Of a stretch of DNA of 42,342 nucleotides, positions 3,885 to 35,576 are shown in pieces. The position numbers and the translations under genes are program-made. Location: NCBI GenBank assembly GCA_016210485.1, contig JACQUD010000019.1, positions 1 through 42,342 on the forward strand, given 5' to 3'. Under the pieces are notes generated by a model. The model worked only from the letters and a program-made list of their open reading frames with translations. It searched no databases and was not told the origin of the DNA. This DNA comes from Chloroflexota bacterium (GTDB taxonomy: Bacteria > Chloroflexota > Dehalococcoidia > JACQUD01). The stretch's first letter is position 1. Every line of letters starts with the position of its first letter.

Positions 3885-3983
3885 TCAGGCCGCAGAAAGT
3901 TCGAGTACTGTCCGCTAATCCCCACCTCAGTAGACAAGCGCGAAGGTCTTCTCGAAAGTCCGAGTTTTACCTTTTGTCCCCAA

Positions 3984-4040
3984 TGGTGGGGCCAAACAGG
4001 ATTCGAACCCCTCGGCTATTCTACAGAAGTACAGCAGTCC
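3984..4040 (-). pseudogene. 3' part of a tRNA gene with encoded CCA, no matching 5' half
   Basis: Read leftwards, the sequence has a T-arm core (GGGGTTCGAATCC), then TTTGGCCCC, then ACCA, as at the end of a tRNA gene with an encoded CCA. Just before it is a possible long variable arm (GCTGT paired with ATAGC). No GGGGCC-type 5' acceptor strand is found in the preceding 100 bases, and the T stem has a mismatch. It is therefore either a broken tRNA or the tail copied by an integrating element. Confidence 0.5.
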
Positions 4041-4101
4041 CGCTCAATGGAGTCAGGCTTGGCATATGGATTTTCACGACATCTCCAATGCGATGTCGAA
4101 C

Positions 4102-4776: not shown

Positions 4777-4801
4777 CGTGTCAGGTCAGGGAAGAGAGAG
4801 A

Positions 4802-5719: not shown

Positions 5720-5723
5720 GCGC

Positions 5724-6506
5724 TTACTCCTTGGCAGCAGTCTGGGCCACGGGAAGGCCCAGCTTGAGGATTATGGCCCGAACAGCTTGATAAAGGGGTG
5801 CGTCCTCCGGCAGTTCCACCACGGGCGACCCCCGGACCTCGATGGCCTCCAGGGCCGGGTCTACGGGCAGGGTGGCGATGAGGTCCAGCCCCTCCTTTTC
5901 GATGGCCTGGATCAAGGTGGGGGAGAGGTCTCCGTTCACCCGGTTCACCGCCAGACAGATGCGCCCCACGCTGGTACGCAGCTCTCCCATGAGAGCTTTC
6001 ATCCTGCCGGCGGTGACGATACCTCTGAGAGAGGGGTCCGAGACCAAGAGCAGGATGTCGATGTCTCTGGTGGTCTGGCGGGAGATGTGCTCCATGCCGG
6101 CCTCGCAGTCTATGACCACATAATCATAGCTGCGGGACATGCGGTCGATGATCTGGCGCAACATGTTGTTGGCGGCGCAGTAGCACCCGGGCCCCTCGGG
6201 GCGGCCCATGGCCAGGAGGTCGATCCTCTCTCCCTCCACCAGGGCTTGGCTCACCTGGAGTTCCAGATAGTCCTGCTTGGATATCCCGGCCTGGAACTGG
6301 CCCTTTTTCACCTGGGCGGCCATCCCCTCTCTGATGGCTCCAATAGTATCGGAGAGGGATGTGCCCAGGGCCATGTTCAGATTAGTGGCGGGGTCGGCGT
6401 CTATGGCCAGGACCGCTCCTTCCCGGGACAGCATCTTTATTATTAAGGCAGCCAGGGTGGTCTTCCCCGTGCCCCCCTTGCCCGCTATAGCGATGGTGGT
6501 GGTCAC
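5724..6506 (-). CDS. cooC: CooC-type nickel-insertion ATPase
   Basis: A P-loop ATPase of the MinD/CooC family that helps load nickel into carbon monoxide dehydrogenase or acetyl-CoA synthase. It shows the deviant Walker A motif GKGGTGKTT right at the N-terminus, a DADPATNL segment, and Cys-x-Cys (GPGCYCAANN), which binds nickel or zinc at the dimer interface of CooC proteins. I start it at the GTG at 6506, two bases past the preceding stop with AGAAGGGGAT upstream, giving 260 residues. A start at 6554 would overlap the previous gene by 47 bases and add an unusual leader. No CODH catalytic subunit is in the window, so its client may be AcsB or a CODH encoded elsewhere. Confidence 0.9.
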   Translation of the reverse strand: MTTTIAIAGKGGTGKTTLAALIIKMLSREGAVLAIDADPATNLNMALGTSLSDTIGAIREGMAAQVKKGQFQAGISKQDYLELQVSQALVEGERIDLLAMGRPEGPGCYCAANNMLRQIIDRMSRSYDYVVIDCEAGMEHISRQTTRDIDILLLVSDPSLRGIVTAGRMKALMGELRTSVGRICLAVNRVNGDLSPTLIQAIEKEGLDLIATLPVDPALEAIEVRGSPVVELPEDAPLYQAVRAIILKLGLPVAQTAAKE

Positions 6507-6507
6507 G

Positions 6508-7956: not shown

Positions 7957-7958
7957 GT

Positions 7959-9419: not shown

Positions 9420-9420
9420 G

Positions 9421-11358
9421 CTATGATGCCTCCCTCAGCAGATTCTTCATCGAGGGGAAACGGTCCATATCGGTGTGGGGCAGGAAGGCGGCGGCGGTGA
9501 ACTCCTCCATGAAGGAGTTGTCAGCGATGAGCTCCAGGTAGGTCATCCTGCCCGCTACCTCCTTGATGGCGGCCCGGGCTTGTCGGGAGAGGAGGGCCTG
9601 AAAGGCCCCCAGAGCCGAGGTGTTCCCCAGGTATTTGAAGCGCTCCCAGGGCAGATCCGGCAGAAGGCCAGTTTGGATGGCCTCCTCTACGTCTATATGT
9701 CTGCCGAAGGACCCTCCAATGAGCACCTCATTGATATCCTGGGGGGATACGCCGGCGTGGCGCAACATGATGGTGATGCCGGCGTAGATGGCCCCCTTGG
9801 CGCGCAGCAGGTTGTTGATGTCCACCTCGCTGAGGACGATGTCCTCACCCGTCCCCGATTCCGAGGCCCAGGCCAGGACGAATTCCTTCCCATGCTCTCC
9901 CTCCCGGGCCCGGCATCTCTTTCCCATGGCCTCTCGAATGTAGCTTAGGTTTATCTTACCCGCCCGGTCCACAACCCCGGTGACCCTCATCTCGGCCAAG
10001 GCCGAGATGAGGCCCGAGCCGCAGATGCCCAGCGGCTTGACATCTCCTATCACCTTCAGCGTCGGCTCCAGGGTCTTGGAGTGGATGCGCACGTCCTCTG
10101 TGGCCCCTTTTATGGCTCGCATGCCGCTAGCGATGCCGGCGCCCTCGAAGGCGGGGCCGGCGGAGCAGGCGTCGGTCATGAGCCAGTCGTCGCCGCCCAG
10201 GACTATCTCGCCGTTGGTGCCCACGTCCATGAAGAGGGTCAGCTCCTTCTTTTTGTAGAGCCCGGAGCTGACCACGCCCGAGGTGATGTCGCCGCCCACA
10301 TAGGCCGCCACCGAGGGCAGACAGGTGACCGAGGCGTTGGGGTTGATGTTAATACCCAGCTCCCGGGCTTGGGTCGGCGGGAAACGGGTGGCTGCGGGCG
10401 CGTAAGGCTCCTCCCGAATATGGCGAGGAGGTATTCCCAGGAAGAGGTGGCTCATGGTGGTGTTCCCTGCCATCACCATATCATATATCTCCGTGGTGGC
10501 CAGGCCGTTCCTCACAGCCAGCTCACTCAGAAGCTCATTCAGGGTCTGTATGACCAGCTCCTGGAGATGCTTCAGTCCTTCAGGGCGTAGGCTGTAGATT
10601 ATGCGGGATATGACATCTTCGCCGCAAGATGCTTGGCTGTTCGGGGCCGAGGCGCTGTCCCGGAGGTGGCCGCTGGACATGTCTGCCAGATATACCACCA
10701 CGTTGGTGGTGCCGATGTCCACCGCCATCCCCCACAAGGGACCTTTGACCTCTCCGGGGAGGATGTCCACCAGACGTGCCCTGTCCCCCGCAGCTCCTTC
10801 CAGGATGGCCGTAACCCGCCACTCGCCTTGGCGCAGCGCCTGGGGAAGCTCCCTCAAAAGGGGGAGGGACACCTCCAGCCCAGCGATGCCCAGGGCCTCC
10901 TTTGCTGCCCGCTCCAGTCGTTCCAGGTCCGAGGTGTTGTCCTCCAGGGTTGGCGGGGGTATCTCCAGGGTAGCTCGGCGCACCGCTGGCTCCAGAGGCC
11001 ACTCCAGGCGCACCGTGGCCGCGGCTCGGCTGGTGGAGGTCTCCGCCCGTGCCCGTTCCCGAGGCGGGGGCACTGTCACCACCAGGTCGCTAGCTACCTG
11101 GGCCTGGCAGGAGAGGACCCAGCCCTGCTCTCGCTGGCGGGGCGTGAGATGGGGATTATCCTCCTGGCTGACCTGCCCCTTCTCCACCTTGACCCGGCAC
11201 CGGCCACACCGTCCCTGTCCGCCACAGGGGAGGTCTATGGATATGCCGTTGCGGTCTGCCGCCTCCTGAAGGGTGGTCCCAATGGGGACTTCCACTTCCT
11301 GGTGGGAGGGCAGGAAAGCAACCTTGAAGTTTTTTGAAGACGGGGATGGTGTTGACAT
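9421..11358 (-). CDS. reductive activator of the corrinoid iron-sulfur protein (RACo type)
   Basis: 645 residues. The N-terminal plant-type 2Fe-2S domain has cysteines 45, 51, 54 and 84 (C-x5-C-x2-C-x29-C). It is followed by a linker and an ASKHA ATPase domain with DIGTTNVVVYLAD near 215 and FMDVGTNGEIVLG near 375. This is the layout of RACo, which uses ATP hydrolysis to drive an electron from the 2Fe-2S centre to inactive Co(II) of the corrinoid protein. Length is normal for the family. It follows acsC by 30 bases in the same direction, exactly where its substrate is encoded. Related activators serve methanol or methylamine corrinoid proteins, but the neighbourhood argues for AcsCD. Confidence 0.92.
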   Translation of the reverse strand: MSTPSPSSKNFKVAFLPSHQEVEVPIGTTLQEAADRNGISIDLPCGGQGRCGRCRVKVEKGQVSQEDNPHLTPRQREQGWVLSCQAQVASDLVVTVPPPRERARAETSTSRAAATVRLEWPLEPAVRRATLEIPPPTLEDNTSDLERLERAAKEALGIAGLEVSLPLLRELPQALRQGEWRVTAILEGAAGDRARLVDILPGEVKGPLWGMAVDIGTTNVVVYLADMSSGHLRDSASAPNSQASCGEDVISRIIYSLRPEGLKHLQELVIQTLNELLSELAVRNGLATTEIYDMVMAGNTTMSHLFLGIPPRHIREEPYAPAATRFPPTQARELGININPNASVTCLPSVAAYVGGDITSGVVSSGLYKKKELTLFMDVGTNGEIVLGGDDWLMTDACSAGPAFEGAGIASGMRAIKGATEDVRIHSKTLEPTLKVIGDVKPLGICGSGLISALAEMRVTGVVDRAGKINLSYIREAMGKRCRAREGEHGKEFVLAWASESGTGEDIVLSEVDINNLLRAKGAIYAGITIMLRHAGVSPQDINEVLIGGSFGRHIDVEEAIQTGLLPDLPWERFKYLGNTSALGAFQALLSRQARAAIKEVAGRMTYLELIADNSFMEEFTAAAFLPHTDMDRFPSMKNLLREAS

Positions 11359-11388
11359 AATCCATGCGCACCTTTATTGCTATTAGGA

Positions 11389-12741
11389 TTAGCTTGTCCA
11401 GGAGCGCTTCAGGTAGCTCCCGATGTCCACAGCATCCCGGGGCCCTACCATTACCTTCCACCCCGATAGCTCTTCCTCCAGCTCGCCTCTCAGCACCGCT
11501 ACGGCTCCAGGCAGTATCAGGCTCTGGTGACTCACCATTTCCGATATCTTGAACTCCTTGACCGTCTTGGCGATCTTGGGCGCATCGAATTTGCCAGCGG
11601 CCCAGGAGGTGAGCACCGAGAGGCCCTCGGTATCCGTCACCATGAGCCAGGAGGGAAATCCGCTGGACTCCACCTCACCGGCTACGGAGAAGTAGGTGAG
11701 GGAGAAGTTGGTGGTCACCAGCAGGGGGCTGGTGGGCTTGGGGTTGCCGAAGGGATAGACGCCCGGGGTTACCTGGATGGGCTTCTGAGGGTCGGTGTAG
11801 ATGTTCATGCGCAGAGTGAGGAGGGGATAGACCATCTCCGGGGAGAAGTGGTCCAAGACGACGATGCTGGCGTATTTGGCTATTTGCTGCCCCGCCAGGA
11901 GCGCCTCCTCCTCCAGGCTGGAGGCGGCCTCGCTGGGGAAGGTGATGACGGGATACCCCAGGGGGCGGAAATTGCTCTTCAGGGCCAGGCGCCGAATTTG
12001 GGTGAGGGAGACTAGGGAGCCATTGAAATCCCTGACCCCTGGGTCTAACACTATATCCTCTACGCCCGTTTTGCTCACCTGCTCCGTCAAGTCCGAGAGC
12101 GGCTGAAGGCCACCAGGCTCGCAGATGGCCACGGGGCACTGGTATTTCTTGGCCAGGGCGGCCATGGGCTGCCAGTTATCCCGCGTGGCGGCGTAGAGCA
12201 GAGGCTTTTGGGCCGCCGCCTTCTCCAGGGCTGCCTCCATCGTTCCAGGGTCTGAGGCCATGAGCATCAGGGGCAGGTCGGTCAGGGATTGGACCTGCTG
12301 GGCGCAGCGAGCAAAGGCAGCTTTGTCTCCGCTCTTGTTCTGGATGGCGATGCCCTGCAGTCCCATGTTATGGCCCACCCGCTCCACAGTGTAAGTGGTC
12401 GCCTCTTTGACCCTGTTAGCTATCGAGTCTGCAGAGTCCGAGTCCGAGACTCGGACCACCAGGGCCGTGGGATGGTAGAATGTCTTCTCATGGCGGAAGA
12501 GCACTACTTCATTGCCTACCTGGAAAGACTTGGGGTTAGCCCCCACGGTCACCAGGCGGATGGGTGGCCGAGCGGCAGCATCCAGGGCCTGTTTTGCCTC
12601 CTCCGAGACGTAGGGGCAAGCCGAAAGTTCGGCCTGTTTCTGGGCTAGCTTCATGGCGAAAGCCAGGCAGGTGGGGAACTTGCACTCTTTGCAGTTGCTC
12701 TTGGGCAGAAGCTTGTAGATCTCTATACCCGATAGCGGCAT
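11389..12741 (-). CDS. acsC: corrinoid iron-sulfur protein large subunit
   Basis: 450 residues. The N-terminus carries the 4Fe-4S motif with cysteines 17, 20, 25 and 42 (C-x2-C-x4-C-x16-C), which supplies the electron that keeps cobalt as Co(I). A TIM-barrel domain follows, then a C-terminal corrinoid-binding domain. With AcsD it carries the methyl group from AcsE to AcsB. The first residues (PLSGIEIYKLLPKSNCKECK) match the family closely. The ATG lies 2 bases after the acsD stop, so the pair is translated together. Nothing looks broken. Confidence 0.95.
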   Translation of the reverse strand: MPLSGIEIYKLLPKSNCKECKFPTCLAFAMKLAQKQAELSACPYVSEEAKQALDAAARPPIRLVTVGANPKSFQVGNEVVLFRHEKTFYHPTALVVRVSDSDSADSIANRVKEATTYTVERVGHNMGLQGIAIQNKSGDKAAFARCAQQVQSLTDLPLMLMASDPGTMEAALEKAAAQKPLLYAATRDNWQPMAALAKKYQCPVAICEPGGLQPLSDLTEQVSKTGVEDIVLDPGVRDFNGSLVSLTQIRRLALKSNFRPLGYPVITFPSEAASSLEEEALLAGQQIAKYASIVVLDHFSPEMVYPLLTLRMNIYTDPQKPIQVTPGVYPFGNPKPTSPLLVTTNFSLTYFSVAGEVESSGFPSWLMVTDTEGLSVLTSWAAGKFDAPKIAKTVKEFKISEMVSHQSLILPGAVAVLRGELEEELSGWKVMVGPRDAVDIGSYLKRSWTS

Positions 12742-12743
12742 AT

Positions 12744-13709
12744 CTAGGCACTCCTTTGGCCAGCACCGGCCATGAGCTTATCTATGGTGGCTCTGGCCAG
12801 CTCCACGGACCTGGGGTGGCGCAGAACCACGATGTCAGCCCCAGCTTCTAGCAAGGATATGGCAGTGATGCCTTCCCAGAGGATAGCGCGCTCCTTCGCC
12901 TGGCCCCAGGTAGTAGGCACCCCTTCCGAGACCCTGGCCTCCTTCTGCCGCCAGGCCTCCTCGCCTACGGTGCATATCATGGGCATGGCAGTCATAGCAT
13001 CTCCCTGGAGGCCAGCCAGCCTCAGGCGCTCCATCACAGAGTATGAATATTCCAGGCCATAACCCAGAGCGCCAGTGGTAGGATCCATGAGGATAGCGTC
13101 TCGGCTCACTCCTACATCGGAGATGAGGATGTTGAGTTGCTTGGCCAGGTTTATCTCGATGGGGGTCTTGCCGATGGCCACGTGGCCGTTGGCGATGCAG
13201 GCGGCGGCGATGGTGCGGTAGTTCTTCTCCATGCAGTCGCCGATGGCTAATCGCTGCCCTCGTGCCGCCTCGGCGGCGGCCATGAGCACCTCGTTGTCTT
13301 TCTCCGCCACCTCTGGCCCCAGGACGATGACTGGGAGGTCCACCGCCTCTAAAACTTGAGCTACGTTCTTCTTGGCGGCCTCGGCTCCGGTGTTCCCGTT
13401 CTCGGGGTGGGCGCTGGACAGTCTCAGAGCGATGAGGTCAGCCCCCAGCTCGGATGCCTTCTTGGCCCAGGCGGCAGGGCTTTTCAGGGCGCTACCCCAG
13501 ACCTGGCGAAGGTTTTCGGCCCACTCCGCCGGATTCCGGTCATGGACCTCAATGGCGATGGCGGGGCGGTGTGGGATGGCTCCTTCAAAGTGGAGGAAGG
13601 GCAGGGTGGCCTCCCCCCCCACCACAACCTTTTTGCGTCCATTCCCCCCAAGGGTAACCTCGTGGATACGCCCCGGCCATTTCTGAACAGGCAACTCTAC
13701 GGCAGGCAA
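12744..13709 (-). CDS. acsD: corrinoid iron-sulfur protein small subunit
   Basis: 321 residues, normal length for the family, forming a TIM barrel that pairs with AcsC and helps hold the corrinoid. Family stretches include FEGAIPHRPAIAIEVHD, DLPVIVLGPE and MDPTTGALGYGLEYSYSVMER. The start is a TTG at 13709 with GGGAGGGAGAGA directly before it; no ATG nearby fits. It is separated from the upstream VOC gene by a terminator-like hairpin, so it either has its own promoter in the roughly 45-base gap or depends on readthrough. Together with acsC, RACo and acsE it forms the methyl-transfer half of the acetyl-CoA pathway. Confidence 0.95.
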   Translation of the reverse strand: MPAVELPVQKWPGRIHEVTLGGNGRKKVVVGGEATLPFLHFEGAIPHRPAIAIEVHDRNPAEWAENLRQVWGSALKSPAAWAKKASELGADLIALRLSSAHPENGNTGAEAAKKNVAQVLEAVDLPVIVLGPEVAEKDNEVLMAAAEAARGQRLAIGDCMEKNYRTIAAACIANGHVAIGKTPIEINLAKQLNILISDVGVSRDAILMDPTTGALGYGLEYSYSVMERLRLAGLQGDAMTAMPMICTVGEEAWRQKEARVSEGVPTTWGQAKERAILWEGITAISLLEAGADIVVLRHPRSVELARATIDKLMAGAGQRSA

Positions 13710-14545: not shown

Positions 14546-16768
14546 CTAGAGAATGGAGGGCATCGCCAGGGCAGGATGTCCTTTCTCCTGAAGGAAGGCC
14601 ACGAGTTCTTCCAGGGTCTTGGCCGTCTTCTCGTCGGCTATCTTGTCCAGGAGGTCGGGGTCCCCCTCCCGCTGGCACACCTCCTTGAGCTCATCGGCCA
14701 TAGCCTCCTTGAGGATGCTGCTCATCCATACTACGCGCTTGAAGCCTCCCTCGGCCAGGAGGAATTTCTTAGAAGTGATATACCATTTGCCGTGGCCCAT
14801 CATTCCTGGAGTTTGGTTGCCGCCGCCGATGTCCCCGGCCAGCGTGGAGAAGGTGGCGCCAAACGGGGTGACGCTGTAGTCATCTCGGGAGACGATCATG
14901 ACGCCGTTGGCCTCGGGCAGCACCACCATGATGCACTCGCAGCAGCCGCAGGTGGTCATGGGGGAGTCCATGAGGGAGTAGATAGTGAAGCGGCTCGCCT
15001 TCTGCTGGGAGTTCTGGAAGACGAACTGGTTCACCCCCTCCCACTCTCCCTTGCCAGGATCCACGATGCTGCCCTTCTTGACGGGCTGGTTGGGGCCGGT
15101 GGGGTTGATCTCGTAGGAGGCTTTGCAGTCCAGCCAGTTGTAGGCCCCGCACAGGCCCACCCTCTCCGGGTTGATGACGCAGATGTGGGTAGGGGCGAAG
15201 GATTGGCACAGGGAGCAGCTATAGAAGGTGTCCACCGCCTCGTCGGTGAGGCCAGCCATCCTTACATTGCGCTCGTGATAGACCTGGCGGGCCTGCTCTA
15301 TGAGCTCTTGAACCTTGGGCTCCTCGGTGTAGAGGGTGATTTGGACCTTGTCCACGATGGCGCCGAAGTCTTCGTGAAGTTTGGCGTGGAGGATGTCTCC
15401 CAGATGCTTGATGTGGAAGCCCTTCTCCGTGGCCGCGTTGGCGAAACGGAGCCAGGTGATGTCCCGCTGGCCCATGTGCTGGATGCCCTCGGCCCCGTTG
15501 ACGAAGTGGTGGAACTGGCGCTCCAAGACGGGCTCGAAGTCGGGCTGCATCTTGCGCCCCGCCACTTCCACCCGGATGCCCAGGGGCATCTTGCTGCCCG
15601 CAGGGGCGTTATCCAGGTCGGGGCCTATTAGCGTTATCTTGCCGTCCTCTACCTCCTCCATTTTCCTCATGGAGAGCCATTCGAAGCACATTCCACCCTT
15701 GCCGCCGAACTCCACTCTCAGATTGGCCCGGCGCACCACCTCACCCTCGAAGGCGGGGCCATAGGCCACGGGTATGTTTATCTTCTGGAGCTTGACCTTC
15801 ACGCCTCGGATTTCGAGGCAGCGTTGCACCAGGCGCTCGGCCCGCTCCAGGTCGTCCTTGCCCGGGATGTCATCGAAGGGGACGCTGACCACGTGCTCGT
15901 ATCGGGTTATGCCTGTGGGCAGGATATTGGGGATAAGGGTGTCGGCGATGACGGGGAAGCCGTAGTTGATAGCCCCGGCGGCGGTGGCATATTTTAGGTC
16001 GTCCACCTGGCCCAGGGCCAGGGCGAAGGCGAAGCAGCGGAACTTGTTGTAGAGAAGCATCTCCCGGACATTGCCCGGCGGGAAGCCGCCGAAGCTGAAG
16101 GCAGCCCGGGTGGCGTAGCCCAGGGCATAGATGGTAGAGATGGTGTCGGAGCCGAAGGGAACGGTGAAGGTGTCATAGCCCAACTCTATCCCCGCCTCCC
16201 GGAGCTGATCCACGATGGAGTGGCCGTTGGCGCTGGAGGAGAGGAAAACCAGGAGTCCCTTGGACTGGAGCTCCCGCACTATCTTGACCGCCACCTCGTT
16301 GCTCTTGGCTGCCCCCACTATAGCAGCGAAGCCGGGCATCCGCCCGTCCACCATCTGGATGCCCCAGGATCGCATTTGGATGTCATCGATAGGGCCGTTG
16401 TAGACATAGCCGTCGTTCTTCTCGGGCTGTTCCCCCTTGGCGAACCGGATGGCCTCAATGGCCTCCTCGGCCAGGAGTGTGGCTACGCCGGCGTCCAGGG
16501 TCTCCCCCAGATATGGCAGCCACAGGCTCTCTCTAGGTAAGGGGGGGACAAGGCCCCGGGCATGTTTCAGCACGGGCTCCAACTCTCCCAGAGTCTTCAC
16601 CTGTTGGCCAGTGAAACCCAGGATGACGGGCAGGTGGTAAGCAGTGTTGGGGAAGGCGACAGATGTTTGGGGGCCCATCTCCTTGGTAGCGGCCTTCAGC
16701 AGCTTCTCGGCCTCGGCGACAATCCCCTGGGCACCCCGGATGGCTGAGGTGGCGATATAGCGAGACAT
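14546..16768 (-). CDS. acsB: acetyl-CoA synthase (CODH/ACS beta subunit)
   Basis: 740 residues, full bacterial length including the N-terminal domain that docks onto CODH. It joins a methyl group, CO and CoA into acetyl-CoA at the nickel-iron A-cluster. Cysteines 518, 521, 530 and 540 hold the 4Fe-4S cluster, and the Cys607-Gly608-Cys609 motif holds the distal nickel. Each is offset by exactly 12 from the Moorella numbers as I recall them. Conserved surroundings such as CQSFAPTHIC, LCGAYNWLDCKASYEINP and GKGEWEGVN are intact. AAGGAGG precedes the ATG. It is 53 bases after a small stress-like gene and upstream of acsD/acsC. No CODH catalytic gene (acsA) is in the window, so CO may come from a CODH encoded elsewhere. 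Confidence 0.97.
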   Translation of the reverse strand: MSRYIATSAIRGAQGIVAEAEKLLKAATKEMGPQTSVAFPNTAYHLPVILGFTGQQVKTLGELEPVLKHARGLVPPLPRESLWLPYLGETLDAGVATLLAEEAIEAIRFAKGEQPEKNDGYVYNGPIDDIQMRSWGIQMVDGRMPGFAAIVGAAKSNEVAVKIVRELQSKGLLVFLSSSANGHSIVDQLREAGIELGYDTFTVPFGSDTISTIYALGYATRAAFSFGGFPPGNVREMLLYNKFRCFAFALALGQVDDLKYATAAGAINYGFPVIADTLIPNILPTGITRYEHVVSVPFDDIPGKDDLERAERLVQRCLEIRGVKVKLQKINIPVAYGPAFEGEVVRRANLRVEFGGKGGMCFEWLSMRKMEEVEDGKITLIGPDLDNAPAGSKMPLGIRVEVAGRKMQPDFEPVLERQFHHFVNGAEGIQHMGQRDITWLRFANAATEKGFHIKHLGDILHAKLHEDFGAIVDKVQITLYTEEPKVQELIEQARQVYHERNVRMAGLTDEAVDTFYSCSLCQSFAPTHICVINPERVGLCGAYNWLDCKASYEINPTGPNQPVKKGSIVDPGKGEWEGVNQFVFQNSQQKASRFTIYSLMDSPMTTCGCCECIMVVLPEANGVMIVSRDDYSVTPFGATFSTLAGDIGGGNQTPGMMGHGKWYITSKKFLLAEGGFKRVVWMSSILKEAMADELKEVCQREGDPDLLDKIADEKTAKTLEELVAFLQEKGHPALAMPSIL

Positions 16769-26839: not shown

Positions 26840-28015
26840 CTATACTCGATGCACCTTGACCAGGTTTGTGCTGCCTGGGACAGCAAGAGGAAGTCCGGCA
26901 GTAATGATTATAAGGTCACCTGTTCTAGCAAGGCTCGTGGTCATGACGATATCTCGCGCCTGCTCGAATATTTCCTCCAGGCTGAGAGATTCAGGCATTT
27001 TTACAGGGAGGACCCCCCAGGCTAGGGAAAGCCGATGCAGGACGTTCTCTGACGGGGTCACCCCTATGATCGGCTGGCGAGGCCTGTATTTGGACACTCG
27101 CAAAGGTGTGGTTCCCCCCATTGTGAAAGCTACAATGGCTCGGGCTCCTACTTGATAGGCTATCTGGCAGGCTGCCCTGGCTGTGGCGTCATTGATTTCC
27201 GGCACGACATCTTGCCATTTCTCACGAAGTATCTGCTCGTAGGGAAGCGCCGCCTCGGCCTCCAGAGCTATCCTTCCCATAGTCTCTGGAGCTTGTATCG
27301 GATATTTGCCAATGGCTGTTTCTTCGGAGAGCATCAGAGCATCGGTGCCGTCCAGAACTGCGTTGGCTACGTCAGTCGCCTCCGCTCTGGTAGGGGTAGG
27401 CGACTCGACCATAGATTCCAGCATCTCAGTGGCTACAATTGCCGGCTTACCGAGGTGGTTAGCCTTCTTTACCAGTTGCTTCTGCGCCAATGGCACCTTT
27501 TCTATTTTTATCTGCATCCCTAGGTCCCCCCGGGCGACCATTATTCCTTCGCAAACTTCAAGGATAGCGTCGATTTGCTCCAAAGCCTGGGCTTGCTCTA
27601 TCTTAACGACAACAGGTATGTCGGCGCGCCTTTCTCTGAGCAGTTCCTTGACCTCTACTACCTGTTCAGCCGAAGAGATGAACGATAGGGCGATGAAGGT
27701 AGCATCCTGCAACTGGGCGAAGCGGAGATGTTCGCCGAAGACCTCCCTCATACTCCCGTAGCCGCGTTTCAGCCCGGGGAGATCGACAAGGATGCCTGTG
27801 GTGAGCCTGAGCTTCTGACTAAGTTGACGCACTTCCGCAATGACCCGGCTATGCTCGGCCAGAGTGCCATGAGCCAGGTTGAATCTGGCTATGTCCATGC
27901 CTGCTCTCAGCATAGCCTCGATAATTTCAGCGGACTTGCTGGCCGGGCCCAGGGTACAAACTATCTTAACCCGGCGTTTTATCCTGTCTAGGTTTATCGC
28001 TTCTCGGTTTAACAT
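26840..28015 (-). CDS. pyruvate kinase lacking the B (lid) domain
   Basis: 391 residues against about 470-590 in the family. It makes ATP and pyruvate from phosphoenolpyruvate. The A barrel is there: KIVCTLGPASKS, RFNLAHG, VVVKIEQAQALEQ with the catalytic Lys and Glu, GIMVARGDLGMQI with the metal-binding Asp, and ATEMLESM with the catalytic Thr. The C-terminal allosteric-type domain is also present. After LVDLPG the sequence jumps within about 20 residues to HLRFAQLQDATFIALSF, so the roughly 100-residue B domain that closes over the active site is missing, with no frameshift. Activity is therefore uncertain. It follows pfkA in a leftward glycolytic operon. Confidence 0.85.
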   Translation of the reverse strand: MLNREAINLDRIKRRVKIVCTLGPASKSAEIIEAMLRAGMDIARFNLAHGTLAEHSRVIAEVRQLSQKLRLTTGILVDLPGLKRGYGSMREVFGEHLRFAQLQDATFIALSFISSAEQVVEVKELLRERRADIPVVVKIEQAQALEQIDAILEVCEGIMVARGDLGMQIKIEKVPLAQKQLVKKANHLGKPAIVATEMLESMVESPTPTRAEATDVANAVLDGTDALMLSEETAIGKYPIQAPETMGRIALEAEAALPYEQILREKWQDVVPEINDATARAACQIAYQVGARAIVAFTMGGTTPLRVSKYRPRQPIIGVTPSENVLHRLSLAWGVLPVKMPESLSLEEIFEQARDIVMTTSLARTGDLIIITAGLPLAVPGSTNLVKVHRV

Positions 28016-28062
28016 TGTTGGCTATGTCAAGGAATTACGCTAGACTTGAAGAGTTCCAAGTA

Positions 28063-29031
28063 TCACCCCGATACCAGTTTAAGCAGCTCGACCAAGAAAT
28101 GGTCGAGCTGCTTTTTCTTCTCCCTGGCTTCCTTCAGCGGCGTGCGAACTATCTGTCCACATACCTCTCCTATCACTACAGCATTCTCCCCTTGAAGCAG
28201 GGTTTCGATAGCAGCAACGCCCAGCTTGATGGCGAGGACGCGGTCTCGTGCTGTGGGTGAACCGCCACGCTGGGTATGGCCCAGAATGCAAACTCGTGAA
28301 TCGAGGCCAGTCAGGGCTTTCACTTCTTTAGCTACCTCAAAAGCTCCACCGGGCCTGTCTCCCTCAGCCACAACGGTGATGCAAGCCTTTTTCCCTCTCT
28401 TGAAGGCGTCCTGAATAGAGCGGGAGAGTTGGTCCATGTTCTCGATAATCTCAGGGATAAGCACTTCCACGGCTCCGCCCGCAATCCCTGCCTCGAGGGC
28501 GATAAATCCTGCTTCACGCCCCATGACCTCTACAAAGAAAAGGCGGTCCAGGGAGAAGGCGGTATCTCGGATGCGGTCAATGGCGTCGAGGGCAGTGTTG
28601 ACGGCTGTATCAAAGCCTATGGTGAAGTCCGTGCCATAAACATCGTTGTCTATGGTGGAGGGGATTTGCACAATCTTTGTCTCGGTCTCCTCACTAAGTG
28701 CTGCTGAACCTTGGAGTGTGCCATTGCCACCTATGATGACCAGAAAATCGACCTTGGCTTTATCTAGGAAGGCAACGGCTGGGGCCCGGCCCTCTTTTGT
28801 CTTGAATTCTAGGCAGCGGCTAGTGTGAAGAATGGTGCCCCCAAGGTGCATGATATTTGCTACGCTCCGGCTGTTCATATGTATGGAATCGCCGGCGAGC
28901 AATCCGCTGAATCCGTGTCTGATGCCGATTACCTCAATCCCCTTAGCCAGAGCAGTGCGCACCACAGCTCTTATGGCAGAGTTCATGCCGGGCGCATCGC
29001 CGCCACTGGTAAGCAGAGCAAGCTTGGCCAT
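28063..29031 (-). CDS. pfkA: 6-phosphofructokinase
   Basis: 322 residues, the usual bacterial length. It phosphorylates fructose 6-phosphate to the 1,6-bisphosphate. Motifs: LLTSGGDAPGMNSAIRA at the start, the catalytic PSTIDNDVYGTDFTIGFDTA, VEVMGREAGFIAL for substrate binding, and GHTQRGGSPTARDR. The nucleotide loop reads IIGGNGTLQGS where E. coli has GGDGSYMGA, so the metal-linked Asp103 is Asn. The residue after the TIDND proline is Ser, not the Lys of pyrophosphate enzymes. Phosphoryl donor is thus probably ATP but not certain. It lies between an aldolase and a pyruvate kinase, all leftward. Confidence 0.93.
   Translation of the reverse strand: MAKLALLTSGGDAPGMNSAIRAVVRTALAKGIEVIGIRHGFSGLLAGDSIHMNSRSVANIMHLGGTILHTSRCLEFKTKEGRAPAVAFLDKAKVDFLVIIGGNGTLQGSAALSEETETKIVQIPSTIDNDVYGTDFTIGFDTAVNTALDAIDRIRDTAFSLDRLFFVEVMGREAGFIALEAGIAGGAVEVLIPEIIENMDQLSRSIQDAFKRGKKACITVVAEGDRPGGAFEVAKEVKALTGLDSRVCILGHTQRGGSPTARDRVLAIKLGVAAIETLLQGENAVVIGEVCGQIVRTPLKEAREKKKQLDHFLVELLKLVSG
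28081..28113. repeat. perfect 14-base-pair hairpin inside the 3' end of pfkA
   Basis: AAGCAGCTCGACCA and TGGTCGAGCTGCTT pair perfectly around a 5-base loop and encode the C-terminal helix. On the rightward strand it is followed by five T, like a terminator, though no rightward gene ends here. Confidence 0.6.
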
Positions 29032-29046
29032 CCCTTCCCCCTTCGA

Positions 29047-30030
29047 TCAATAGTCCAGGAACCAGGTTTCCGATACCTGAGCTAGCTGGCGGCTCGATAG
29101 TCTTAACTTCTTATACCAAGGAGCAGCGTATTTTGTTGTTATCTCCATAAGCCTTTTCATTCTATCTACGGCTACGGTGGAAAGAAACTTGATGCGTCCC
29201 TCCTTTTCATCGATGTCTTCTGCTTCCTGCCAGATAGCTCGCCCCGCAAGAAAGCCTGAAGCACCAGCCTGGCAGGCGAGCTTTACTTCCCGACAGAAGC
29301 TATCGAAGTTTGCGCCGGCGCTCAAGATAACCCAGGGCGTTCGTGAGGCTTCATCGAGCCGGTGACAGAGGGTAAGCAGGCTGGCCTCATCCTTTATTTG
29401 GCTGAGGTCAGCGGGGAATTCTGCCTTCAACACATCGATGGCAAGCGAAGTTATCTGTTTTGCGGTTTGGATCACCAGCTCCGGCTTTCGCTCATTGAGT
29501 TGAAGCTCCGTCTCCCCTTCTATGGGATAAGTTTTCGGCTCCACTACACAGAGTAGGTCATGCTTTAGGCACTCCTCAGCCAGGGACCTAGTAACGGCCA
29601 ACTGGTGTGATGCCACCTCAGACAGGTCAGGGCGGTAGTGCAACAATAGTTTTGCTCCCGACCCGCCAACTCGGCGGATTTTTTCCACGCTCCAGCCTTG
29701 TTGCAGGGTAGTCAGCCGCCCTTGCGGCGAATCGAGGTAGCCAGAGGCCTCTGTGCTGATCAAAAGCCCGGCGCGGCCAGGGAGCATCCCGCTGGCGATA
29801 CACTGGGCCGTGCCGTAGTTAGGGTCAAGAAGTGCTGCGGTAGAATGGGGAGCCAGGGTTTCGCAGAGTTCGAGCTTACGTTCCACCATAGCCTGGTAGC
29901 TCACCTCTCCGGGATGAGCCTTGGCTATCATGCTCTTTAGAGATCCCCTGTGATCCATAGCGCATATAGCAAATACACCATCTGGGCTGGAAATTTGTTG
30001 CAACCCTCTGATCTTTCCGATTGTAAGCAT
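29047..30030 (-). CDS. LacD/class I aldolase family (tagatose or fructose 1,6-bisphosphate aldolase)
   Basis: 327 residues with the LacD-type TIM barrel. DGVFAICAMDHRGSLKSMI is the N-terminal signature, ALLDPNYG comes near 67, and GSGAKLLLHYRPD contains the Schiff-base lysine. CVVEPKTYPIEGE and TPWVILSAGANFDSFCREV follow. LacD enzymes split tagatose 1,6-bisphosphate and often fructose 1,6-bisphosphate. Being the first gene of a leftward run with pfkA and pyruvate kinase, it probably serves as the fructose-bisphosphate aldolase here. AAGGAG and AAAAGGG lie ahead of the ATG, and a perfect TATAAT sits at 30074-30079 on the same strand. Confidence 0.85.
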   Translation of the reverse strand: MLTIGKIRGLQQISSPDGVFAICAMDHRGSLKSMIAKAHPGEVSYQAMVERKLELCETLAPHSTAALLDPNYGTAQCIASGMLPGRAGLLISTEASGYLDSPQGRLTTLQQGWSVEKIRRVGGSGAKLLLHYRPDLSEVASHQLAVTRSLAEECLKHDLLCVVEPKTYPIEGETELQLNERKPELVIQTAKQITSLAIDVLKAEFPADLSQIKDEASLLTLCHRLDEASRTPWVILSAGANFDSFCREVKLACQAGASGFLAGRAIWQEAEDIDEKEGRIKFLSTVAVDRMKRLMEITTKYAAPWYKKLRLSSRQLAQVSETWFLDY

Positions 30031-30292: not shown

Positions 30293-31147
30293 ATGGCGAG
30301 CCTTCGTTCTCAAGGGATGGTGCTCACCCTCTATGGCGACTATATCAGACAACGTGGGGGTGAGATTTGGGTTGGCAACCTAATCAAGCTATTGGGGAAC
30401 TTTGGCCTCTCGGAGCTAGCCATCCGCTCCGCTCTCTCCCGAATGTGCCGCAAGGGCTTGCTCTCGTCGCGCCATGAGGGCAGGAGGAGCTTCTTCTCCC
30501 TGACACCCCAGGGGGATGAGCTTCTGGTCAAGGGGACACAGCGCATCTTTCAGCGACCTCAGCGGGACTGGGATGGCTCCTGGCACATCGTAGTCTACTC
30601 CATCCCAGAGGAGAGGCGGGAGGTGAGGGATCACTTCCGTCAGGAGTTAAGCTGGATGGGCTTCGGGGCCTTGACTAATGCCTGCTGGATCTGCCCCTGG
30701 GATCATAGCCAAGAGGTGCAGGATTTGGCGCGAGCCTTGGAGATGTGCCAGCACGTAGAGATTTTCGCTGCCCAACACATGGGGTTCGCTACATCCAGGG
30801 AACTGGTGACTCGTTGCTGGGACCTTGAGCGGATCCATCGCCGCTACGTTGACTTTTTGGAGAAATATGGCCCTCAGTTCCAGGACGATGCCAGCCAATG
30901 GAAGGCGGGGTATCCTCTGACCCCGGCTCAGTGCTTTGTGAAGCGCTTCATGCTTATTCATGAATATCGACGCATTCCATACTTCGACCCTGATCTGCCC
31001 CGAGAGTTCCTGCCTTCGGTCTGGCTTAGAAACCAGTCCGCCCAGGTGTTCACCGAATATCATAATTTGCTGGCCCCCAGGGCTAATCAGTACTTCGATT
31101 CCATCTTTAAGAAGACTTCTGAGGAGAAAAAGGCGGTAGCGGTGTAG
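30293..31147 (+). CDS. PaaX-family transcriptional repressor
   Basis: 284 residues. The N-terminal winged helix (MVLTLYGDYIRQRGGEIWVG, then GLSELAIRSALSRMCRKGLL) matches PaaX, the repressor of phenylacetate breakdown that answers to phenylacetyl-CoA. The middle beta-rich domain (WHIVVYSIPEERREVRDHFR) and the C-terminal helical part (CFVKRFMLIHEYRRIPYFDP with LPREFLP after it) are also typical. No paa catabolic genes are in the window; the next gene rightward is an acetyl-CoA synthase paralog. The ligand is therefore likely a different acyl-CoA. No ribosome site is obvious before the ATG. Confidence 0.9.
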   Translation: MASLRSQGMVLTLYGDYIRQRGGEIWVGNLIKLLGNFGLSELAIRSALSRMCRKGLLSSRHEGRRSFFSLTPQGDELLVKGTQRIFQRPQRDWDGSWHIVVYSIPEERREVRDHFRQELSWMGFGALTNACWICPWDHSQEVQDLARALEMCQHVEIFAAQHMGFATSRELVTRCWDLERIHRRYVDFLEKYGPQFQDDASQWKAGYPLTPAQCFVKRFMLIHEYRRIPYFDPDLPREFLPSVWLRNQSAQVFTEYHNLLAPRANQYFDSIFKKTSEEKKAVAV

Positions 31148-31201: not shown

Positions 31202-31230
31202 TTGACTGTCAAAAACCACAGACATATATT
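31202..31230 (+). promoter_or_regulatory. sigma70-like promoter of the ACS-like gene
   Basis: TTGACT and TATATT are separated by 17 bases, about 60 bases before the ATG, so the gene has its own promoter rather than relying on the PaaX-type gene. TTGACTGTCAA at the -35 box is itself a short palindrome. Confidence 0.6.
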
Positions 31231-31289
31231 TTATGCCAAAAGCAATGGGTCAATAACATATCGTCGTTGCTTCTAAAAAGGAGGTAGCT

Positions 31290-33206
31290 ATGACTGACAA
31301 GAAACTCGCTAATAAGGTCTTGGCCGAGTGGCGTGAGGCTCTGGGCAACGCCGAGCCCTTCCCCGATACCGAGTATCCCTATCCCGTAAACCAGGTCCTG
31401 GCCGGCAGCCAAGACCTGGCTCGATTGAAGGAAAATCACATCGAGCACAACGCTCTCCTCTTGGCCGAGGCCGTGGCCGCCTGCCAGCCCGAGGCCGCCA
31501 GGTTCTTCATCCCCGATCGGGAGGTGCGGGCCTTGCTCCTCCGCCTGAACACCGCCACCGGCTGGGCACTCCTGTGGGGAAACGATGACCCCGAGACGGC
31601 CCAGCTCGCCTCCCTTATCCAGAAAGAGCGCTTTGTTCTCTTCTTGGCCCTTCCACCGGGGAGCGACCCTGCCCTTATCCAGGGGGGACGGGACTTGGGG
31701 AACCACCCCACCGCCCCCATCTACTTCCTCCAGGCCCTGGCGCGCTACGCCCTCATATACGGACGGGTATCCCCCGGCGATGACCACGCCTTCGCCGATT
31801 TCCTCCAGGATCACTCGCCCGGCGTCATCTTCATCACCCGGAGCCGTCTGTCCCCGGCGGAGGAGGCCATGCTTCGGGATATGGCAGACCTGGGCATCCC
31901 CATCGTCCTGGGCCCCAACACCTCTGTGGAACTGGGCCTGCCCCGGGCGGAGAGCCCGCAAGCTATGGTGGACATGGCGCTAAAGCTGCCTGCCCTGAGG
32001 GTGCGCCGCCAGCTTCGCTACTCCCTGGACATCCCCTTTTCCTTCGATGTGGCCTACGCTGGAGAGAAGATCGAGGAGGGCCCTGCTATAGGGGGCACGC
32101 CCCTCAGCTTCCTCAGCCTCAGGCCCGAGGACCGGGGAGATGGCATAGAGGTAGTGAGCCGGATGGGGGCCGATGTGGGCATCGAGGTGTTCGTGGGCGA
32201 CCCCAGGGTGGACATCACTGCTACCGATTACCTGGAGGATGTAGCCGGACAGCTTCCGGGCTACATCCAGGGGGTCACTTGCGAAGTCAAGGAAGGCTGT
32301 CCTACTATCCGATGGCGGCCCGATATGGCCCTGCTGCCTGAGCATCTGGCCAAAGCCATCTACCACGGCCTCAAGGCCGAGTTCCCGATGCAGAACCTGA
32401 AGGTGCGCCTGGTCTTCGACCGAGAAAGGCTCCCGTCGCTGAAAGAGGCTGCCCAAACTTTCAGAGACTTGCGCCAGAAGGCCGTGGCCTCGGCTACCGA
32501 GGAAACAGAGCCTTACTTCTACGGCTGCTTTCGTTGCCACTCCTTCGCCCTGGAGCACGCCTGCACCATCACCCCGGAGAGGCCGCCCCAATGTGATAGC
32601 CGGACCTGGATGCACGTCAAGGCCCGGGCGTTGCTCTCGGAGTATACCTCGGCTGGCGCCGGAGGCATCCGCCTCACCCCCTCCCGCGACGCCATCATAG
32701 AAAAGGGCCGGCCCCTTGACTCGCAACGCGGAGAATGGGAAGGTGCTAACCTGGCCGCCCAAAAGCATACCCAGGGTAAGATGCGCCGGGTGTTCCTGCA
32801 CAGCCTTTTTGGCCACCCCCATTCCGCCTGTTCCTGCTTCCAGGCCCTGGCGTTTCACATACCCCATGTGGACGGCATCGGAGTCATGGCTCGCGGCTTC
32901 AAAGGGCAGACCCCCGATGGCCGGTCCTGGGATGCGCTGGCCAATGCTGTCGCGGGCAAGCAGCAGTCGGGCTACCTGCCCATGGGCCGTGCCTACCTGC
33001 GCTCGGCTAAGTTCCTCCAGGGCGATGGTGGCTGGCGGCGGGTGGTGTGGATGCCCCAGGAGCTGAAGAAAGCCTTCGCCGCCGATAAATCCTGGATAGC
33101 CACAGAGGTCGAGGCCCCAACCCTAGAGAAGCTCCAAGATTTTCTTGGGCACCATAGATGGACACCCTCGGAAGAAGATAGTGCCCGAGCCAAGTCTCAC
33201 CGTTAA
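31290..33206 (+). CDS. divergent acetyl-CoA synthase (AcsB/CdhC) paralog
   Basis: 638 residues behind a perfect AAGGAGG. The C-terminal half aligns with AcsB. Cysteines 413, 416, 425 and 435 keep the exact C-x2-C-x8-C-x9-C spacing of the A-cluster iron-sulfur site, in CFRCHSFALEHAC and PERPPQC. Cys514-Ser515-Cys516 stands where AcsB has Cys-Gly-Cys. GEWEGAN, RRVFLHSLFGHPHSACSC and KFLQGDGGWRRVVWM also match. The middle matches weakly (LDIPFSFDVAYAGE). The N-terminal 240 residues are short and unlike the CODH-docking domain of the acsB at 14546. It may bind a nickel-iron cluster and handle an acyl or methyl group, but the reaction is unknown. It is far from the acs operon and behind a PaaX-type regulator. 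Confidence 0.85.
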   Translation: MTDKKLANKVLAEWREALGNAEPFPDTEYPYPVNQVLAGSQDLARLKENHIEHNALLLAEAVAACQPEAARFFIPDREVRALLLRLNTATGWALLWGNDDPETAQLASLIQKERFVLFLALPPGSDPALIQGGRDLGNHPTAPIYFLQALARYALIYGRVSPGDDHAFADFLQDHSPGVIFITRSRLSPAEEAMLRDMADLGIPIVLGPNTSVELGLPRAESPQAMVDMALKLPALRVRRQLRYSLDIPFSFDVAYAGEKIEEGPAIGGTPLSFLSLRPEDRGDGIEVVSRMGADVGIEVFVGDPRVDITATDYLEDVAGQLPGYIQGVTCEVKEGCPTIRWRPDMALLPEHLAKAIYHGLKAEFPMQNLKVRLVFDRERLPSLKEAAQTFRDLRQKAVASATEETEPYFYGCFRCHSFALEHACTITPERPPQCDSRTWMHVKARALLSEYTSAGAGGIRLTPSRDAIIEKGRPLDSQRGEWEGANLAAQKHTQGKMRRVFLHSLFGHPHSACSCFQALAFHIPHVDGIGVMARGFKGQTPDGRSWDALANAVAGKQQSGYLPMGRAYLRSAKFLQGDGGWRRVVWMPQELKKAFAADKSWIATEVEAPTLEKLQDFLGHHRWTPSEEDSARAKSHR

Positions 33207-33383: not shown

Positions 33384-34283
33384 TTGCCAGGAAAAGACCC
33401 CCTGCTCCATAGCAGTGTCAGTCTCCCCGAAGCCTCGGCTATAACCTCCGCCGGGGCTTCATCAGCCTCCAGGGAGTGGGTTCAAGGGCTGAGCCAGACA
33501 GCTAAGAGGCTGCGCCGCCACATCGTAACTATGCTGGCGGAGGCCGGCAGCGGCCATCCCGGAGGCTCTTTGTCTGCCGTCGATATCCTCACTGCGCTGT
33601 ATTTTCGCATCATGCGCCACAACCCTCGTCAGCCCCGCTGGCCGGACCGGGACCGTTTTATTCTGAGCAAGGGCCACGCCGCCCCTGCCCTCTACGCCGC
33701 CCTGGCCGAGGCCGGGTATTTCCCCGTGGAGGAGCTTCGGATGTTGCGACGCCTGGGCAGCCCCCTCCAGGGGCATACCGATATGACCGCCACCCCAGGC
33801 GTGGAGATGTCCTCCGGCTCCTTGGGCCAGGGCCTCTCCTTCGGCCTGGGCGTGGCTCTAGCCGCTCGCCTGGACGGAAAAGACTATCGGGTTTACGTGC
33901 TATTAGGCGACGGCGAGTGCGACGAGGGCCAGGTCTGGGAAGCAACTATGGCCGCCTCCCACCTGAGGATGGATAACATAGCAGCTATCGTGGACCGCAA
34001 CCAGTTGCAGCTGGATGGCTGGACTAGGGATATCATGAGCCTGGAGCCCCTGGCCGAGAAGTGGCGCGCCTTCGGCTGGCATTGCCTGGAGGTGGACGGC
34101 CACGACGTGGAGGCGGTGGTGTCGGCTCTGGAGGCATCCCGCCAGGTAAAAGGGAAGCCTACCGTCATCATCGCTCATACCATCAAAGGGAAAGGCGTTA
34201 GCTTCATGGAGAACAACGTGGACTTCCATGGCCGCTCCCCTAACGCCCAGGAGCTGGCCAAAGCTTTGGAAGAGCTGAGCTAA
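33384..34283 (+). CDS. transketolase, N-terminal subunit
   Basis: 299 residues from a TTG with GGGAGGG upstream. It holds the thiamine-diphosphate-binding half of a split transketolase: EAGSGHPGGSLSAVDILTAL near 50, ILSKGHAAPALYAALAEAG near 93, LGDGECDEGQVWEA with the metal-binding motif near 175, and AAIVDRNQLQLDG. The first 30 residues look unstructured. The other half follows after a small membrane protein gene. Together they move two-carbon units between sugar phosphates in the pentose phosphate pathway. Split forms are common in archaea and many anaerobes; the closest alternative is a DXP-synthase-like pair. Confidence 0.93.
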   Translation: MPGKDPLLHSSVSLPEASAITSAGASSASREWVQGLSQTAKRLRRHIVTMLAEAGSGHPGGSLSAVDILTALYFRIMRHNPRQPRWPDRDRFILSKGHAAPALYAALAEAGYFPVEELRMLRRLGSPLQGHTDMTATPGVEMSSGSLGQGLSFGLGVALAARLDGKDYRVYVLLGDGECDEGQVWEATMAASHLRMDNIAAIVDRNQLQLDGWTRDIMSLEPLAEKWRAFGWHCLEVDGHDVEAVVSALEASRQVKGKPTVIIAHTIKGKGVSFMENNVDFHGRSPNAQELAKALEELS

Positions 34284-34317
34284 TGAGCCATCTGCCCTAT
34301 GGCTTGAAGGGAGTGCC

Positions 34318-34614
34318 ATGAGTGGGCTGGGGGGTCTGGCTTATATTGTGGCGGCCCTGGCTTTTCTGGTGGTGCTGGCAGGGTTCAGCCGCTGGTGGCG
34401 TCGAAAGACGCGGCATATTAGAGGGCAAAAGAGCTTTGCTGAGGTCTTCAGCCGGAGGCCTAAAATCAAATGGCCGGGGAAGCGCCTCCCCTTTCAAAGT
34501 GCGTCGGAAAGTCGGAGTCACTTTCCTCGCTGTCCCATCTGCGGCACCGCCTCCCGCCCCTCTCCCCTGGAGGGTAGATTCGAGTGCCCCCATTGTGGCC
34601 GGCTCTTCAGTTAG
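34318..34614 (+). CDS. small membrane-anchored zinc-ribbon protein
   Basis: 98 residues with GAAGGGAG before the ATG. One N-terminal membrane helix (LGGLAYIVAALAFLVVLAGF) is followed by a basic stretch and then two zinc knuckles, CPICG near 72 and CPHCG near 90, at the very end. It is inserted between the two transketolase subunit genes with short gaps on both sides (34 and 8 bases), so it is co-transcribed with them. The frame is supported by the ribosome site and the cysteine pairs; an overlapping frame at 34322 is a shadow. I recognise no named family, and any role with transketolase is only suggested by position. Confidence 0.75.
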   Translation: MSGLGGLAYIVAALAFLVVLAGFSRWWRRKTRHIRGQKSFAEVFSRRPKIKWPGKRLPFQSASESRSHFPRCPICGTASRPSPLEGRFECPHCGRLFS

Positions 34615-34622
34615 GTAGCAGG

Positions 34623-35576
34623 ATGAGCGCCGCCGCTGGGATAAAAAGTATCCGGGAGGCCTATGGCAAAGCTCTGGTCCAGCTGGGCCAGATCAACCCC
34701 AACGTGGTGGTCCTGGACGCCGATCTCTCCAAGTCTACCATGACCCGCATCTTCGCCCAGGAGTTCCCGAAGCGCTTCTTCGACATGGGCCTGGCGGAGC
34801 AAAATCTGATGAGCGTGGCCGCCGGGCTAGCGGCCTCGGGCAAGATTCCCTTCGCCTCCACCTTCGCCGTCTTCGCTACGGGCCGAGCCTTCGACCAGCT
34901 CCGGGTGAGCATCGCCCAGCCCGGCCTCAATGTGAAGATAGTGGCCACTCACGGCGGCATCACTGTGGGCGAGGACGGCGCCTCTCACCACGCCATCGAG
35001 GACTTGGCCCTGGCCTGCGCCTTGCCTGGCTTCACCGTCATCGTCCCCGCCGATGCACCCGAGGCGGAGCAAGCGGTGGTGATGGCGGCCCAGACCTCGG
35101 GCCCTTTCTATATCCGCCTGGCCAGGCCCTCTACCTCTGTGATCCACGGCCCCGGCTATCGCTTTCATCTGGGACAGGCCGAGGAGCTTCGCTCAGGAGG
35201 GGATGCCACCATCATCGCCCTGGGCCTCATGGTAGTCCCCGCCCTGGAGGCGGCTGTGAGCCTGGAGGCCGAGGGCATTCGCTGTCGAGTATTGAACATG
35301 GCCACCCTGAAGCCCCTGGACACCGAGGCGGTGGTCCGCGCCGCCCGGGAGACGGGGGCCATAGTTACCGCTGAGGAGCACCTCCAGCATGGCGGCCTGG
35401 GCAGCGCTGTGGCTCAGGCAACGGCCCAGGCCTGCCCCGTGCCCATGGGCTTCGTGGCTATCCGGGACGTCTACACCAAGTCGGGCAAGGCCGAGGAGCT
35501 TTTGCGGAGCCGTGGCCTCACCGCTCGGGACATCGCTGGGGCGGTGAGAGCGGTGGTTGCCCGCAAGGGCCGGTAA
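34623..35576 (+). CDS. transketolase, C-terminal subunit
   Basis: 317 residues from the ATG at 34623; the frame is open further upstream but overlaps the zinc-ribbon gene. It has the pyrimidine-binding half: VVVLDADLSKSTMTRIF, FFDMGLAEQNLMSVAAGLA with the catalytic Glu, ATHGGITVGEDGASHHAIED near 120, and the C-terminal domain with VTAEEHLQHGGLGSAVA. It pairs with the subunit encoded at 33384. The stop is 7 bases from the convergent SHOCT-protein gene. Confidence 0.94.
   Translation: MSAAAGIKSIREAYGKALVQLGQINPNVVVLDADLSKSTMTRIFAQEFPKRFFDMGLAEQNLMSVAAGLAASGKIPFASTFAVFATGRAFDQLRVSIAQPGLNVKIVATHGGITVGEDGASHHAIEDLALACALPGFTVIVPADAPEAEQAVVMAAQTSGPFYIRLARPSTSVIHGPGYRFHLGQAEELRSGGDATIIALGLMVVPALEAAVSLEAEGIRCRVLNMATLKPLDTEAVVRAARETGAIVTAEEHLQHGGLGSAVAQATAQACPVPMGFVAIRDVYTKSGKAEELLRSRGLTARDIAGAVRAVVARKGR

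Follow-up and report, generated by a model that had tools for sequence, protein, structure and literature searches.

A divergent acetyl-CoA synthase paralog with conserved A-cluster ligands encoded outside the acs operon of a Chloroflexota bacterium

The 42,342-nucleotide stretch analyzed here (the window; contig JACQUD010000019.1 of assembly GCA_016210485.1) encodes, besides a canonical AcsB, a second acetyl-CoA synthase (ACS)-like protein, ACS2, which is best explained as an ancient paralog of ACS and not as a canonical CODH/ACS subunit. To our knowledge, the A-cluster is used for one reaction, the making or breaking of acetyl-CoA inside CODH/ACS. A second use was suggested by a deep sister clade from three phyla in which the metal site was kept while both gas gate and A2 face were changed, and by at least one ACS2 genome in which neither CODH nor CFeSP was detected. 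No description of an ACS2-like paralog was found in the open literature searched.

The homology of ACS2 to ACS was secure at the sequence level. The Pfam model ACS_CODH_B_C (PF19436) matched residues 395-601 with an E value of 2.2e-44, BLASTP against the window's AcsB gave 27% over 439 aa (E = 3e-39), and ACS entries of the PDB were matched with E values from 1e-44 to 1e-34. Together with the cysteines described below, these matches supported the original prediction that the protein is a divergent ACS whose A-cluster site is conserved. The shared segment GEWEG was present as claimed, and the other segment read GGWRRVVWM. The open reading frame (31290-33206, plus strand, 638 aa, ATG start) had been called with exact boundaries. 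ACS_CODH_B_C was the single Pfam match of ACS2, with no CODH_A_N and no CdhC (A2) match. The window protein scored at most 228 bits with the NCBIfam ACS models (NF040764, NF007078, NF003379 and TIGR00316), below every cut-off, and so did six other members; the scanned members reached 164-252 bits, where 356-809 would be required. A Pfam or NCBIfam model separating ACS2 from AcsB/CdhC was not found.

Table 1. Coordinates in the window of ACS2, its domains and key residues, and genes used for comparison.
Feature	Position	Strand	Basis or remark
ACS2 gene, 638-aa divergent acetyl-CoA synthase-like protein	31290..33206	+	ATG start; Pfam, BLASTP and PDB matches
Domain A1, shortened (residues 1-235)	31290..31994	+	HHalign, Foldseek
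Arg80, equivalent of Moorella Arg142	31527..31529	+	Alignment; role per PMC11474084
Tyr157, equivalent of alcove Phe229	31758..31760	+	Alignment; role per PMC11321310
Domain A2 (residues about 236-400)	31995..32489	+	AcsB/CdhC-invariant residues missing; no Pfam CdhC match
Domain A3, the A-cluster domain (residues about 401-638)	32490..33203	+	Pfam PF19436, residues 395-601
Fe4S4 and proximal-Ni cysteines C413, C416, C425 and C435, with Phe419 (equivalent of Phe512)	32526..32594	+	Alignment
Cys514-Ser515-Cys516, distal-nickel site	32829..32837	+	Alignment
Sigma-70-like promoter TTGACT-17-TATATT	31202..31230	+	Consensus match only
Ribosome-binding site AAGGAGG, 5 bases 5' of the ACS2 ATG	31278..31284	+	Sequence
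PaaX-type regulator gene	30293..31147	+	Neighbor of ACS2 in the window's genome only
Canonical AcsB, 740 aa (comparison)	14546..16768	-	Pfam/NCBIfam
acsV, acsC and acsD of the canonical acs operon	9421..13709	-	Pfam/NCBIfam

Relatives were found by an alignment-based scan of genome contigs; a single-sequence scan gave none. Full-length relatives occurred in 6 of 393 genomes of the host's class (one broken across frames), 4 of 291 genomes of the phylum Armatimonadota and 2 of 40 of the phylum Sumerlaeota, and the ACS2-bearing MAGs included Chloroflexi groundwater bins, Candidatus Hebobacterum (Armatimonadota) and a Sumerlaeota bin. The resulting set held 12 intact proteins from 11 genomes, with two in G280. 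In a tree with AcsB and CdhC, all 12 formed a single clade on a long stem with support of 100/100, apart from bacterial AcsB, archaeal CdhC and other ACS-like proteins, in agreement with the divergence claimed for the window protein. Full-length matches from Methanocaldococcus fell with ordinary AcsB-type proteins in the tree and were rejected as ACS2. The members were 33-51% identical to the window protein and their ligand residues were invariant. This invariance, together with intact frames in 11 genomes from three phyla, largely refuted the view that ACS2 is a decaying, non-functional acsB copy, which we consider very improbable even though one copy was broken into three frames in assemblies (G090/L079) and A1-only remnants exist (G058:C29 and G105:C261).

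All A-cluster cysteines were present in ACS2 as the original prediction had stated, in the arrangement C413-x2-C416-x8-C425-x9-C435 followed by C514-S515-C516. The pattern C-x2-C-x8-C-x9-C occurred twice in the six-frame translation of the whole window, in ACS2 and in AcsB (14546-16768), indicating that the four-cysteine spacing in ACS2 is not a chance match. The refuting condition named at the outset, homologs that lack the cysteines, was checked and did not arise: all six were retained in 12 of 12 intact relatives. The Moorella reference sequence used for numbering corresponded to PDB 1oao_C, with identity over 729 residues. These ligands make it very probable that ACS2 assembles a Ni-Ni-[4Fe-4S] A-cluster. 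By contrast, Cys-Ser-Cys did not hold as a defining trait. The middle residue was serine in five Chloroflexota members (the window protein, L071, L072, L096 and L073) and glycine in the other seven, and some archaeal CdhC-like proteins also had Cys-Ser-Cys. Because serine occurred in that archaeal clade as well and required two changes on the tree, it is convergent; having evolved twice, and with glycine in members outside one Chloroflexota subclade, it was rejected as an ACS2 hallmark. Serine at this position would be chemically compatible with backbone-amide ligation of the distal nickel.

The N-terminus had been described as unlike the CODH-docking domain. That description stood at the Pfam level only; by profile and fold the region corresponded to a shortened A1. 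HHalign aligned the N-terminal domains of ACS2 and AcsB over 227 columns with a probability of 98.9 and an E value of 2.2e-17. The AF2 model of ACS2 (pLDDT 87.6, pTM 0.81) predicted the three-domain fold of ACS: its top Foldseek matches were full-length ACS, and it matched the whole closed form, with a TM of 0.70 to 1oao_C over 717 columns, end to end. The N-terminal part of the model also matched the A1-only ACS entries 6yua and 9g03. A foreign N-terminus was rejected by both HHalign and Foldseek, and on profile and model evidence the N-terminus is homologous to the CODH-docking/CO-channel domain of ACS, in shortened form.

In ACS, nickel-bound CO is surrounded by Ile146, Val149 and Phe229 of A1 and Phe512 of A3, and the middle residue of Cys-X-Cys, a glycine at the distal nickel, is contacted on its carbonyl by Arg142 (PMC11474084). 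Phe229 is a CO alcove residue, and in Moorella ACS the F229W replacement increased the affinity for CO by a factor of 80 (PMC11321310). The gating helix of A1 carries a hinge glycine and a hydrophobic plug position (PMC12289521). Of the 12 ACS2 proteins, all kept the equivalent of Phe512 and 11 kept that of Arg142, the nickel-site arginine; position 229 was Tyr or Trp in every member. None of the 12 retained the hinge Gly145 or the hydrophobic plug of position 148, and the I146 and V149 positions were changed. With the pocket residues kept and the hinge and plug lost, the aligned sequences make the metal pocket look used and the CODH-gated channel look altered.

The A2 residues mostly lost in ACS2 included E329, G330, R334, H408, H419, Q422, R423 and W427; the same residues were identical in 7 of 7 AcsB proteins and nearly so in CdhC. 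CoA approaches ACS from the A2/A3 side, so that loss of these residues makes a changed acceptor likely, one that differs from CoA bound in the usual way. The suggestion of a different partner or acyl substrate was supported, as a likely different partner or acceptor. The same losses count against the main rival explanation, that ACS2 is a second monofunctional acetyl-CoA synthase working on free CO, methyl-CFeSP and CoA as an accessory Wood-Ljungdahl isozyme. We regard it as possible but doubtful. In its favor are the retained A-cluster and most of the alcove features; moreover, the Tyr/Trp of ACS2 resembles F229W, whose raised CO affinity (PMC11321310) would suit unchannelled CO.

The distribution of pathway genes bears on this rival in both directions. 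Canonical AcsB was found in 10 of the 12 ACS2 genomes (G000, G058, G023, G037, G280, G090, G393, G394, G395 and G678), compared with any ACS-type match in at most 37% of the genomes of the host's class (144/393). In nine tested ACS2 genomes, the window's among them, a CODH-family (Prismane) gene was present together with canonical AcsB and the subunits of CFeSP, and G678 also had the canonical AcsB/CFeSP/CODH set. These co-occurrences favor a second synthase, whereas two ACS2 genomes had no detected AcsB, and one of them also had no CFeSP and no CODH. In the latter (G653, Armatimonadota; completeness uncertain), no second ACS, no CdhD-family protein (CFeSP) and no CODH were found; its sole Prismane-family gene was a hybrid-cluster protein (TIGR01703, 752 bits) and not a CODH. 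Canonical AcsB was likewise not found in G699, a genome of uncertain completeness. The acs genes usually sit in one cluster, and the absence of AcsB from G653 and G699 could therefore reflect a single missing contig.

The co-occurrence in 10 of 12 genomes would also fit a maturation or nickel-storage factor that uses the ACS fold to serve the A-cluster of canonical AcsB. Such a factor is not generally needed, since ACS2 was present in 6 of 144 host-class genomes with ACS-type matches, and ACS2 stood without detected AcsB in G653 and G699; we consider this role quite improbable.

As originally noted, ACS2 lies outside the acs operon, about 14.5 kb from AcsB and on the opposite strand. The CODH-family gene of the window's genome was located elsewhere (G000:C62:8106-9785). 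No acs or CODH genes adjoined ACS2 in the loci examined, some of which were on short contigs (3.9 kb in L077), and the gene contexts varied from genome to genome. Sugar-metabolism genes flanked ACS2 in the window (26840-30030 and 33384-35576), with pyruvate kinase-like, 6-phosphofructokinase-like and tagatose-bisphosphate aldolase-like genes on one flank and a split transketolase on the other. A sigma-70-like site and a ribosome-binding site preceded the gene, but the promoter scan as a whole did no better than shuffled sequence (2 sites found vs 1.4 expected). The gene does stand behind a PaaX-type regulator gene, across a gap of 142 bp. No PaaX gene was seen beside any other member examined, and the PaaX and ACS2 upstream regions had no common word of at least 8 bases; PaaX was accordingly rejected as a functional partner.

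Several genomes had regulator genes next to ACS2. In the window the neighbor was PaaX; in four Chloroflexota loci (L072, L096, L073/L033 and L074/L034) it was a MerR whose cysteine-rich tail reads C-x2-C-x4-C-x3-C. Such neighbors, and the position of ACS2 on its own outside the pathway operon, would be expected of a metal-cluster sensor or regulator in which the A-cluster or pocket senses CO, redox state or nickel without turnover. Such a sensor is improbable, given that the whole catalytic constellation was kept across phyla, the regulator type was not conserved, ACS2 has no signalling domain and no upstream word was shared with PaaX. Metal-related genes also lay at some ACS2 loci. A TauE-type exporter gene and a DUF364 (putative heavy-metal chelation) gene lay directly upstream of ACS2 in G699 (L183:6476-8039), and metal-resistance-like genes lay near it in G058 (MerR and the mercuric reductase MerA; L032:13664-15634) and G678 (an ArsR/SmtB regulator and an ArsP-family permease; L163:5584-7141).

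A 303-aa QueG/PceA-like Fe-S protein was encoded near ACS2 in four Chloroflexota loci (L072, L096, L073 and L079). Its profile weakly matched epoxyqueuosine reductase (E = 1e-3) and the reductive dehalogenase PceA (E = 7e-3), both of which are cobalamin enzymes. Its predicted model was poor (pLDDT 57), with weak, non-significant CblD-like matches, and similar proteins were scattered elsewhere in the host's class. It was not found in the window's genome (69% complete) or in G037 and thus cannot be a universal partner. We treat it as a lead, not proof, for a corrinoid partner in some species. Reductive dehalogenase-like genes adjoined only two loci and were set aside as partners.

Taken with the predicted fold, the sequence evidence is best explained by ACS2 being a free-standing A-cluster enzyme that performs corrinoid methyl chemistry with an acceptor that is not CoA in its usual binding mode, a reading to which we assign a probability of about 0.5. 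The protein would hold a Ni-Ni-[4Fe-4S] A-cluster whose proximal nickel would take a methyl group from a corrinoid protein. The donor may be CFeSP in genomes that have it; elsewhere a different B12 protein may serve, for instance the QueG/PceA-like neighbor of some relatives. ACS2 may take up free CO in place of channelled CO, and the acceptor that would receive the methyl or acetyl group would make no use of the canonical A2 site. The presence of canonical AcsB in 10 of 12 genomes counts against this explanation, as it is compatible with ACS2 being an accessory to the pathway in which AcsB works. Only tentatively do we propose that ACS2 acts outside the Wood-Ljungdahl carbonyl branch altogether, in nickel-methyl or acyl transfer independent of CODH and CFeSP, with another corrinoid donor and a non-CoA acceptor. 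If true, it would be the first A-cluster reaction besides acetyl-CoA synthesis or cleavage.

Several other ACS-like proteins were recorded. Methanocaldococcus sp. SG1 (L078:9962-12193 and L090:9782-11209) encoded CdhC plus a full-length AcsB-type protein with A1, whose A2-A3 was almost identical to its own CdhC; a close relative (L080) had such a protein too. The A1 domain has been stated to be missing in all methanogens (PMC11474084). Genome S140_74 had both a Cys-Ser-Cys form (L084) and a Cys-Gly-Cys CdhC (L088). At a locus of the host's class (L039, G051:C84), near methylmalonyl-CoA mutase-like genes, an ACS-like protein of 454-481 aa was paired with a protein of 834-835 aa, and two such pairs stood in tandem (3783-5147, 5656-8163, 8212-9657 and 9921-12425); the ACS-like proteins had Leu for Phe512, and the first of the 834-835 aa proteins was cdhA-like. 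Stand-alone proteins matched the A1 of ACS2 only (L038:3702-4442 in G058:C29, and G105:C261:597-1322). At L037 (G034:C3), a 221-aa A3-only ACS-like protein (7867-8532), with the first cluster cysteine apparently lost, was followed by an MtrA-like gene (7241-7870). ACS matches in open frames of 1116-1284 aa in G638, G641, G609 and G721 suggest fused AcsB proteins.

As a natural experiment, ACS2 can help to distinguish the parts of ACS devoted to the metal site from those devoted to CO channelling and thiolysis; the Tyr/Trp that occurs naturally at alcove position 229 is one such case. Annotating ACS2 genes as acsB would overstate Wood-Ljungdahl capacity, for example in G653 and G699. An activity beyond acetyl-CoA synthesis, if shown, would make ACS2 more than an ACS variant.

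Compared with bacterial AcsB (Moorella 1oao/6x5k and Carboxydothermus 7zkj), ACS2 has the same predicted A1-A2-A3 fold, the same six cysteines with the same four-cysteine spacing, Phe512, Arg142 (11/12) and an aromatic residue at 229. However, it is about 100 residues shorter with truncated A1 helices, lacks the gating-helix hinge glycine and hydrophobic plug, has Tyr/Trp for Phe229, has lost the conserved A2 residues, lies outside the acs operon and falls below every NCBIfam ACS cut-off; serine in Cys-X-Cys sets apart the five Chloroflexota members. Archaeal CdhC (the ACDS beta subunit, 9c0s) was the best PDB sequence match of ACS2 (E = 1e-44) and shares with its A3 the pattern LHS...PH(T/S)xC-X-CF, unlike many AcsB, but the A1 of ACS2 is missing from CdhC, in which the A2 residues lost from ACS2 are retained. 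The archaeal CdhC-like proteins with Cys-Ser-Cys (Hydrothermarchaeota and Pyrohabitans; L081-L085, L087 and L091) resemble the window's ACS2 in that motif. Unlike ACS2, they form a separate clade beside CdhC, have no A1 and carry His for Phe512, which holds for the members tabulated. The monomeric ACS of Carboxydothermus hydrogenoformans (1ru3 and 7nyp) can exist outside the CODH complex, as proposed for ACS2; by sequence it is an ordinary AcsB, whereas ACS2 forms a separate deep clade.
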